From positions 1 to 24,132 of IMG/VR virus record IMGVR_UViG_3300022934_000179: a DNA stretch of 24,132 nt, one strand, 5' to 3'. The notes under the pieces were generated by a model. The model saw only the letters and a program-made list of their open reading frames with translations. It made no database searches and was not told the DNA's origin. This document shows, one piece after another, positions 5,012-10,002 of the stretch (positions are counted from its first letter, which is position 1; the number at the start of each line of letters is the position of its first letter). The position numbers were made by a program, and so were the translations under genes. This DNA is from a virus.

Positions 5012-5456
5012 TATGCTCTATGAGAGCATTGATCGTGCCGGATTGGACTACAGGCTCAACCGCTTCGAGCCCGTGTTTCTTGACGTCCTCGGCCTGATCG
5101 CCAGAGAACAGGAAATAGTCTGTGCCTTCCGCCCGCATCCGACGGACGACCAACCAGACAGGAGCATCCGCATGTGTGGTAAGAAAACTTACCTGATGGG
5201 GACTAATTGTTACTTTGTTGGAGGTGGTGTTCTTCAGTTCGATTAGTTGAAATCGAGCTTTGGAGTCCAAGACCATGACGTCTGGAACCCCTTGCGACGC
5301 CCAACTCTCAAGCCGTGTTACTTTCCATCTTGGCATCTGCTTCGCTATTTGACGTTTCATGCTCGACCAGAACTGGCTCTCTGTCGATCTCCTCGTAATC
5401 GGCGTCTTCCGCTTCTGCTTCGATGGTTCTTCCCACGGTACCTCTAAGTTCTGCAA
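4998..5456 (-). CDS. VRR-NUC-type nuclease (PD-(D/E)xK fold), 152 aa
   Basis: Expected elements of the VRR-NUC family are in order: a helix carrying E26 (STESQFWSSMKR), WASQGVPDVMVLD with D59, then FQLIELK with E73 and K75, and PHQVSFL with Q88. Such enzymes are small phage or repair nucleases, often acting on branched DNA, and commonly sit near replication or packaging genes. The frame opens with TTG at 5456; GAGG stands 12 bases upstream, which is weak. The next start, ATG at 5360, would remove E26, so I favour the TTG. That makes a 149-base out-of-frame overlap with the terminase small subunit gene. Function beyond nuclease is inferred. Confidence 0.78.
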   Translation of the reverse strand: MQNLEVPWEEPSKQKRKTPITRRSTESQFWSSMKRQIAKQMPRWKVTRLESWASQGVPDVMVLDSKARFQLIELKNTTSNKVTISPHQVSFLTTHADAPVWLVVRRMRAEGTDYFLFSGDQAEDVKKHGLEAVEPVVQSGTINALIEHIDSY

Positions 5457-5940
5457 TTGCTTTCAAAACCTCTTCTTTTGACATGCTGTCTATCGTTCCA
5501 TGCCTGATTTCAGACTTATTGATGTAGATATTGCCATGAGCCTGACCTCGACGATACTCAGCCATGACGGCTGCGGAGTAGTTTTTGTCAGCAAAAGCAG
5601 CATCTCGAATCTTCTGTAGGTCACGCAGGTGCCGGCTAAAGTCTATGCCGTACTTGCGGTCTAATTCAGCACGGTATTGATTTATTGCTTTGACCACATG
5701 CGGACAAATAGCCGGGTTGGTCATCTCGTAGGCTCTGGTGTGAGCAGAGGATTCAGGATAGCCCGCGTTCACGGCGGCTTCTCTCAAAGTTATCTGGCCA
5801 TCTTTCGACACCAGTTCTTTGACAAAAAGCTCTTGCTTGCGAGTAAGTGGGGAATCGGGAGTGACCTTGGGGCGTCCTGGCTTGGCAGGCTTCTTGTCAA
5901 GATCACGGTATTTTGGTTTAGCTAAGGCTGCGCTCTTCAT
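5308..5940 (-). CDS. terS: Terminase small subunit, 210 aa
   Basis: The small subunit recognises phage DNA and hands it to the large terminase for packaging. After a basic Pro/Lys-rich N-terminus, residues about 31-80 (LTRKQELFVKELVSKDG, then TLREAAVNAGYPESSAH) form the helix-turn-helix-like DNA-binding domain typical of Terminase_2-type proteins. A helical middle follows, and the C-terminal 50 residues are highly acidic (AEAEDADYEEIDRE). No ribosome binding site precedes the ATG; a TATACT box ends 8 bases before it. The gene adjoins the repeat-rich 5941-6184 region, a possible packaging site. The large subunit is not in the window. The tail overlaps the VRR-NUC frame. Confidence 0.75.
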   Translation of the reverse strand: MKSAALAKPKYRDLDKKPAKPGRPKVTPDSPLTRKQELFVKELVSKDGQITLREAAVNAGYPESSAHTRAYEMTNPAICPHVVKAINQYRAELDRKYGIDFSRHLRDLQKIRDAAFADKNYSAAVMAEYRRGQAHGNIYINKSEIRHGTIDSMSKEEVLKAIAELRGTVGRTIEAEAEDADYEEIDREPVLVEHETSNSEADAKMESNTA

Positions 5941-5950
5941 GCCGCAGTAG

Positions 5951-5980
5951 TATATATAGCCAGAAAAATAAAAAAAATAA
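5951..5980 (+). repeat. Left AT-rich arm of a long inverted repeat
   Basis: The arm starts TATATATAG, then CCAG, then A-rich sequence with eight A and TAA. The reverse complement of 6132-6160 reads the same except for GAG in place of G and AAAT in place of AAAAAT. Confidence 0.8.
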
Positions 5981-6030
5981 AAAAAAACTTAGACCCCCCT
6001 TAACGAGTTTTTGACCTAAGTTCTGTCTCT

Positions 6031-6113
6031 GTAACCTTTGTAACCGCAGTGTAACCACTCAACTCAGTAAATACGGGCCCTCCAGAGCCGAGTTACACGG
6101 TTACGCCGGTTAC
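6031..6113. repeat. GTAACC iteron block with inverted copies
   Basis: Three direct GTAACC words at 9- and 11-base spacing are mirrored by AGTTAC, GGTTAC and GGTTAC at 8- and 9-base spacing. A GGGCCC palindrome lies near the centre (6075-6080). Iteron-like arrays are typical of initiator or terminase binding sites; which one applies here is inference. Confidence 0.7.
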
Positions 6114-6131
6114 GGCATTTTAAATAAAAAA

Positions 6132-6160
6132 TTATTTTTTTTATTTCTGGCTCTATATAT
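6132..6160 (-). repeat. Right AT-rich arm of the long inverted repeat
   Basis: This is the inverted partner of 5951-5980, about 150 bases away. The two arms bracket the GTAACC block almost concentrically. Confidence 0.8.
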
Positions 6161-6184
6161 AAAGGGAAAGTGTTTTTTGTAACG

Positions 6185-6358
6185 TTACCATGTGTCCTCG
6201 ATCCATGTGAGGATCACAATCTCCTTTTCTTTGGCGCTGCACTGTTTGCATATCCTGGCCCGTGAGCCGTGGTTCACGAACACCAACCAGTCGTGCATTC
6301 CGATAGAGCATTTGACCTTGGCCCAGTGTTCGTCGCACCAGTCTAGTATTTCATTCAT
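6185..6358 (-). CDS. Small zinc-finger-like protein, 57 aa
   Basis: The start is the ATG at 6358, with GGAG 6 bases upstream; the frame stays open further up but without a good ribosome binding site. The product contains CSIGMHDW (C17, H22) and RARICKQC (C37, C40), a likely four-ligand zinc site of the C-x4-H ... C-x2-C type seen in small phage proteins with an H-x-W motif. It is acidic and Trp-rich. Function is unknown. Its stop codon lies within the GTAACGTTAC palindrome at the edge of the repeat region. Confidence 0.7.
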   Translation of the reverse strand: MNEILDWCDEHWAKVKCSIGMHDWLVFVNHGSRARICKQCSAKEKEIVILTWIEDTW

Positions 6359-6986: not shown

Positions 6987-7697
6987 CTAAAATTTCAGGT
7001 GGTCCAGGGGGAAATTCAGTCTTTTCTTATCAAAAGCCTCGATGCACTCACGGTAGGAATCCATGAAGTGATCGGACACCGAATCTGACGCATGCCAGTC
7101 GGCGCGTTTGAAATCCTTGGTGGGATTGAAGTGGGCCTTCTTCTCTGTGTTGTCGAAGTAGAGTTGGGTTTGCCCACCGTCGGGGCCGAAGAAGAATCTC
7201 GGCACTCGGGGGACGGCGTCAGAGCCGCAGACCACGGAGAGTTGCGTCTTCGCCCAAGGCATTTTGCCGTGGTAGGCGGGCCGGAAGAACACATTTGGCT
7301 TGCCCATCGTGATGAGGTGGACGTCCTGGAATTCTTTGCAGGACCAGGCGGAGAGTTCCGCCAGGGCCCCGCCCAAGCTGTGCCCACAAATCAACAGCTT
7401 TTTAGCCGGGTCCAGGAGTTTTCTGATATCCGGCCAAACTGAGCGATGAGCCCTGACGAAACCCGCGTGGCAGAGTCTGCCTTTGTAGGGTCGGGGGAAG
7501 CTGAGAACGTTGTACATCCAGTCTCTGAGCTGCTGTGTGCCGCGGAACACCACAATGTCGAGGTGCGGGGTCCGGTGGACGAAAGCCGTCGTAGACGTCC
7601 TCTCACACTCGATTTTGGTGGCACCGACGATATTGTCGTTGTAGGCGTTCTCTGAGTAGGTACACGCCGTGTCCAGATTGTCTTCGCTGAATGACAT
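6987..7697 (-). CDS. Class 3 lipase (alpha/beta hydrolase), 236 aa
   Basis: This is an esterase or lipase fold with a complete visible catalytic set. FRGT (51-54) forms the oxyanion region, GHSLGGALAEL carries nucleophile Ser107, GSDAVPRVP carries Asp160, and SDHFMDSY carries His210. Class 3 lipases hydrolyse acyl glycerides; in a phage the target could be host membrane lipid, during entry or lysis. No signal peptide or membrane segment is seen, so it would act in the cytoplasm unless packaged or released by a holin. There is no Shine-Dalgarno sequence; a TATAAT ends 8 bases before the ATG. A terminator hairpin stands just upstream. Confidence 0.85.
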   Translation of the reverse strand: MSFSEDNLDTACTYSENAYNDNIVGATKIECERTSTTAFVHRTPHLDIVVFRGTQQLRDWMYNVLSFPRPYKGRLCHAGFVRAHRSVWPDIRKLLDPAKKLLICGHSLGGALAELSAWSCKEFQDVHLITMGKPNVFFRPAYHGKMPWAKTQLSVVCGSDAVPRVPRFFFGPDGGQTQLYFDNTEKKAHFNPTKDFKRADWHASDSVSDHFMDSYRECIEAFDKKRLNFPLDHLKF

Positions 7698-9675: not shown

Positions 9676-9781
9676 GCTGTCGAAGGTCTTCCACAGCGTC
9701 TATCAGATCATCTAGCTTGGCGAGCTTTGACTCTAGCTCCTGGATGTCTTCCAGGGAATCAAACTCAACAGTAAACCTCAT
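9599..9781 (-). CDS. Small coiled-coil protein, 60 aa
   Basis: The start overlaps the upstream stop as ATGA. After a short strand (MRFTVEFDSLEDI) the sequence is a continuous amphipathic helix with heptad-like leucines (LESKLAKLDDLIDAVEDL, then LNEELRRMVVDQL) and an acidic EEED end. It looks like a dimerisation module. It adjoins a ribbon-helix-helix-like protein and could be its partner. Its last 77 bases overlap a convergent zinc-ribbon gene, so one of the two 3' ends may be less constrained. Confidence 0.6.
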   Translation of the reverse strand: MRFTVEFDSLEDIQELESKLAKLDDLIDAVEDLRQLNEELRRMVVDQLRSKLEEEDYPPE

Positions 9782-10002
9782 GCTCTGAATTCGGGCCGTG
9801 GGCGACCTTCGTCGATCCGCTTCTGCTCGACCTGGTCACTCAAATACTCGCGGTCTTTCTGGCTCAGGTTCTCTGCAATCCAGGACTCGAAGATTATTCG
9901 GAGCTGCCCGGACAATGTGCGGCCTTCCACCTTCGATACCACAAATAGCTGATCATAGACCTCACGTGGCAATAGCACGGATTTCCATTTGTTTGTGTCC
10001 AC
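9778..10002 (-). CDS. Ribbon-helix-helix-like protein, 74 aa
   Basis: A strand (KWKSVLLPREVYDQL) is followed by a helix, FVVSKVEGRTLSGQLRIIFE, and a charged tail. This matches CopG/Arc-type ribbon-helix-helix DNA-binding proteins in order and size. Two GTG codons compete: the one at 10008 touches the ribosome binding site AGGAG, while the one at 10002 is 7 bases from it, so I chose 10002. It follows polA by about 32 bases. It may be a repressor of one of the nearby promoters, but no target is shown. Confidence 0.6.
   Translation of the reverse strand: MDTNKWKSVLLPREVYDQLFVVSKVEGRTLSGQLRIIFESWIAENLSQKDREYLSDQVEQKRIDEGRPRPEFRA

Follow-up and report, generated by a model that had tools for sequence, protein, structure and literature searches.

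A single repeat element upstream of the terminase small subunit gene, conserved in layout across a family of water-borne phages, is a candidate replication origin

Introduction

What is the role of a non-coding block of nested inverted repeats that sits next to a phage terminase small subunit gene (terS)? The block was noticed in a stretch of 24,132 nucleotides representing one viral contig (IMG/VR record IMGVR_UViG_3300022934_000179, G000; hereafter the window), and the first-pass annotation, made from the letters alone, called it an origin or packaging site. The open-licence literature that we searched contains no description of the element, nor of the origin or packaging site of these phages (for context, PMC12753301). 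The analysis below confirms the observation, which turned out to be larger than first noted.

Results

Anatomy of the element

The element comprises two AT-rich outer arms that enclose a second symmetric arrangement of short words (Table 1). The arms had been described as inverted near-copies, and indeed they are 83% complementary over 30 nt and 88% over 25 nt, with 151 nt between them; the best 26-nt pair is complementary at 22 of 26 positions compared with a maximum of 20 among 60 local 2-mer shuffles. Read directly, three GTAAC(C) words (starts at 6031, 6040 and 6051) face three GTTAC words (starts at 6092, 6100 and 6109), and two of the pairs (6031/6109 and 6040/6100) share the centre 6072 that the first-pass annotation had given, while the third (6051/6092) is centred at 6073.5. 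Together with two words in the palindrome outside the arm, which is also present where it had been reported, this amounts to eight GTAAC/GTTAC words in 250 bp against 0.22 expected from the window background (Poisson P about 1e-10). Elsewhere in the window, no 250-bp stretch holds more than two. G014 is a longer contig from this phage; over its 34 kb the element is the sole long-distance inverted repeat.

Table 1. Features of the element and of the genes discussed, in window coordinates.
Feature	Position	Strand	Evidence and remarks
terS, terminase small subunit	5308..5940	-	phrog_51 1e-10; Pfam Terminase_2 4e-5; KPGRPK tail and HTH
terS-proximal outer arm, AT-rich, TATATATAGCCAGAAAAATAAAAAAAATAA	5951..5980		inverted near-copy of 6132-6161; with its partner, top PWM match in G014
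Conserved box, terS sense CTCGTTAAGGGGGGTCTA	5991..6008	-	by eye, at a matching relative position in relatives as well as in the DSL-LC04 and HTVC023P clades
Three GTAAC(C) words ("M/R" block of relatives)	6031..6056		direct read, density test, relatives; opposite in orientation to the triple at 6092-6113
Central spacer, GGCTC-TGGA-GGGCC in terS sense	6057..6091		lineage-specific palindromes in relatives; overall hairpin signal weak
Iteron-like triple of direct words, terS sense GTAACCGGCGTAACCGTGTAAC	6092..6113	-	word starts 9 and 8 bp apart; exact pattern shared by at least 120 stretches of viral contigs (biased sample, see text)
Outer arm, inverted copy of 5951-5980	6132..6161		arm complementarity; covariation tests
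GTAACGTTAC palindrome, outside the arm	6179..6188		many relatives have one to three GTTAC words here
RHH protein (RHH_5/CopG-like), candidate word reader	9778..10002	-	weak Pfam RHH_5 match; motif MDTxxWKSxLVP...EGRTxxGQLR

The profile matches of the adjoining gene agree with its annotation as terS, and given its position and minus-strand orientation the element lies directly upstream of it. Further upstream are genes for PolA, a UvrD-like helicase, an AEP primase, gp34/gp33-like proteins and an SNF2 helicase, and the position of the element between early/replication genes and terS is constant. The accessory region upstream of terS also holds a class 3 lipase gene (6987-7697, minus strand). 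In five relatives (L023, L025, L064, L074 and L090), terminator-like GC hairpins with T runs close the upstream operon just before the outer arm. On the other side, a gene for a VRR-NUC-like nuclease follows terS in eight of nine genomes, and in relatives (L071:1540-2022, L025:6470-6931) its ORF overlaps the terS 3' end in a different frame. Most main-clade TerS proteins carry an AT-hook-like KPGRPK or GRGRPK N-terminal to the HTH, which the HTVC023P TerS does not have.

Nested inverted repeats of this kind could also encode a structured RNA, either a terS leader or a small RNA. Individual sequences give good folds for either strand, which nested inverted repeats necessarily do, but there was no RNAalifold consensus, no Rfam match above threshold and no consistent G-U versus A-C bias, which makes an RNA very improbable. 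By eye, the centre seemed to hold a convincing covarying hairpin, but its mean of 5.5 compared with 4.8 in shuffles, and it is not claimed.

One element per genome

Whether the repeats are conserved in relatives has a clear answer. Two independent routes, through TerS relatives and through a 22-nt iteron-pattern search, converge on the same place, and about 165 relatives carry one such element each, always upstream of terS. The pattern GTAACCGGYGTAACCGTGTAAC forms a fixed-spacing direct-repeat array in at least 120 stretches, a sample biased towards the search pattern itself, and the 9+8 start spacing is kept with other words. TerS was found in 186 of 193 sequences; in the other seven, the locus or contig ends 15-290 nt past the iterons, and the element adjoins terS at every main-clade locus whose sequence extends far enough in that direction. 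The arm-to-arm length is 219-248 bp in 151 of 152 loci (mode 236), and AT-rich arms are present in the clades read. Each of 14 near-complete or long contigs searched contains one triple, except the window phage's own contig, where both halves of its symmetric element matched. When genomes were scanned with a position weight matrix (PWM) of the arms, the two arms were the two best matches in each of G002-G007 and G014, and one arm was the best match in G001; as the best-scoring places of their genomes, the arms do not represent a general promoter. An exact iteron match occurred in none of the genome contigs searched, and a DNA match in none of the named phages. Other GTAAC-rich spots in G002, G003, G006 and G007 fall inside open frames, most of which encode Val-Thr repeats. 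Long frames of this Val-Thr-rich type (VGSVTVTADANVNVTG; G006 26.7-27.6 kb, G003 11.8-12.3 kb, G007 27.9-28.2 kb, G002 49.5-50.1 kb) explain many of the chance GTAAC words.

The element is a real DNA site, present once per genome and probably cis-acting. Conservation, single copy, position, iterons and AT-rich arms support the class of site first proposed, with the exception of a cos-type fixed end. A cos site with fixed cohesive ends would suit the position beside terS, but contigs and circular assemblies pass through the site and contig ends are scattered rather than clustered at one base, which leaves this explanation with hardly any credibility.

The same layout with other letters

A genome-wide layout scan that made no use of sequence similarity (26-nt inverted arms, 150-290 bp apart) returned a single match in DSL-LC04 (61.5 kb) and a single match in HTVC023P (60.9 kb), both upstream of terS. 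HTVC023P is a cultured phage that infects the ocean bacterium SAR11, and its element, at MN698239.1, 11622-11842, makes a precise candidate origin or packaging site available in a cultured phage. In HTVC027P, the layout scan found no such element upstream of the annotated terS.

Nearly every representative of the HTVC023P-type clade has the layout; there, arms include TTTCCTAATACACTTCCTTACAAA, the words are CTAGGAAA and most spans measure 215-250 bp. The DSL-LC04 clade has a triple of GTAAT words (GTAATAGACGTAATGCCGTAA) that retains the 9+8 spacing, and lineage-specific arms (GATACACTCTCT, TTTACTAAGRTAAAC, TTCCTATAGARKTTTTTGRGGTCA). Here the site is 270-630 bp from terS, with one or more small genes and a promoter intervening; this sigma-70-like promoter (TTGACA-N17-TATACT-like, by eye) is outside the element. 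The conserved box varies in relatives (GCGTTAAGGGGGTCGCGG, CAGGGGGGTTCCGCGA, ACAGAGGACGTC), and clade-level homology of box and centre was judged by eye. The layout is kept while the letters differ across a large family of water-borne phages.

Arms coevolve and words change in concert

With the conserved box used to set the regions, the two arms of a genome match each other better than arms from different genomes do (DSL, p 4e-4, 10 representatives; HTVC, p 9e-4, 16 representatives). In the main clade alone the signal is weak (123 of 5000 permutations reach the observed value) because all members share one arm motif.

The words, in turn, switch together, from GTAAC to GTTAC and from CTAGGAAA to CTAAGAAA, and do so repeatedly along the TerS tree, where the word label changes about six times, at least three of them on well-supported branches. 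Locus L080, for example, carries GTTAC at its word places, whereas the corresponding places in L025, and most of those in L071, read GTAAC. All 13 GTTAC-type elements have inverted GTAAC partners, and a search with the flipped triple yielded at least 22 further terS-linked elements, all with flipped partners. In the HTVC-clade loci L291/L292, every TAGGAA is replaced by TAAGAA (nine TAAGAA, no TAGGAA). Such concerted change implies that the words either have a sequence-specific reader or pair with each other, and the switches provide natural genome pairs for finding the site-reading protein.

Candidate readers of the words

The first-pass annotation suggested testing whether the TerS HTH domain binds the GTAACC block. 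Words differ between L080 and L071, whose TerS proteins are 96% identical with identical HTH, and hence TerS, by this comparison, does not track the words. Such binding is thus not favoured, in keeping with the little sequence preference with which SPP1-type TerS HTH domains bind pac DNA (PMC4737164). A nearly sequence-blind HTH would at the same time make the lack of tracking compatible with a pac site, at which TerS would wrap or sense bent AT-rich arms, TerL would make its first cut within the element and headful packaging would proceed toward the late genes. Several observations agree with such a site: the element immediately precedes terS in two clades and lies nearby in the third, the SPP1 pac likewise has direct repeats and spans the terS promoter and start (PMC4737164), most main-clade TerS proteins have a GRPK AT-hook-like tail, and several near-complete genomes assemble as circles, as headful genomes do. 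However, words that change in concert while the TerS HTH does not would need another reader, and the distance to terS in the DSL-LC04 clade does not fit well. Neither do the contig ends, which show no excess at the site in the main clade and, in the HTVC023P clade, are more frequent inside it but scattered. On this evidence a pac site is the strongest rival reading, somewhat less probable than an origin.

RHH dimers bind short tandem words, which makes the RHH protein encoded upstream of the element a natural candidate reader. All seven near-complete main-clade genomes that were compared encode it, at 2-3.4 kb upstream of terS. Its tracking of the words is inconsistent: the RHH strand is altered (YKSVIVP) in one GTTAC genome but unchanged in five other GTTAC genomes and in the GTGTC genome. 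Given these mixed results, the protein may be the reader but is an unproven candidate. In the GTGTC-word genome, the replication proteins show no exchange or replacement.

The words could instead be operators beside the terS promoter for a phage regulator of the late operon, for example the RHH protein. As the product of a core gene with one altered strand this protein would qualify, and in several relatives the element has terS on one side and a terminator-like hairpin of the upstream genes on the other. On the other hand, the RHH protein does not follow the words in the other GTTAC and GTGTC genomes, a fixed 236-bp geometry with coevolving outer arms exceeds what operators need, and the DSL-clade promoter is outside the element. 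Transcription control is accordingly an unlikely explanation.

Discussion

We infer that the element is most likely a replication origin, with a probability of roughly 0.45. Iterons with AT-rich flanks favour an origin over a pac site, and concerted words, which need a specific reader, fit an initiator better. A sequence-specific initiator would recognise the direct words, which are GTAAC in this phage and GTAAT or CTAGGAAA in sister clades, together with the partners in inverted orientation; the resulting nucleoprotein complex would then open one or both AT-rich arms, and the phage AEP primase, UvrD-like helicase, PolA and SNF2-type helicase could load at the opened site.

Some results count against an origin. 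No initiator gene was recognised in the genomes, RHH tracking is inconsistent, closeness to terS fits a pac site equally well, and the skew is weak. The GC-skew analysis that the first-pass annotation recommended gave a divided outcome: cumulative skew is monotonic with coding direction, whereas fourfold sites have the higher skew on the right-hand side of the element in eight of nine genomes and show the reverse in one. The difference is significant in only four genomes, three of which are similar, and the step is not exactly at the site, so that fourfold-site skew is a weak, confounded locator of an origin and at best suggestive.

A further reading, which we regard as rather unlikely, is a bipartite site. 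Coevolving arms and switching words would then be read by two different factors, joining the start of replication and of packaging in a single nucleoprotein complex beside terS throughout the family.

Comparison with known systems

The pac site of phage P1 resembles the element in having short words clustered on either side of a middle zone and in lying near the TerS gene. Its hexamers are Dam sites, unlike the words described here, and P1 pac is not known to have inverted AT-rich arms. PLE satellite origins share iterons with inverted sub-repeats and a poly-A tract, but require a RepA_N initiator (PMC7145576), which was not recognised in these phages.

Phage SPP1 offers parallels to both main readings. 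The SPP1/SF6 pac resembles the element in its direct repeats immediately upstream of terS and in a TerS with HTH (PMC4737164). It differs in that SPP1 pac overlaps with the promoter of terS and with the beginning of gene 1, whereas the element lies between genes and, in one clade, as far as 630 bp from terS, with words that evolve in concert and independently of TerS. The SPP1 origins oriL and oriR consist of direct repeats and an AT-rich unwinding element, oriR being intergenic and bracketed by transcription signals (PMC6316719). As SPP1 origin and pac both contain direct repeats, with AT-rich DNA beside the origin, the repeats as such fit either reading. The gp38/gp39/gp40-type set of initiator, loader and helicase was not recognised here. 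Direct repeats adjoining AT-rich DNA are what the element has in common with oriL and oriR, while its AT-rich arms flank it on both sides as inverted copies and its words stand in both orientations.
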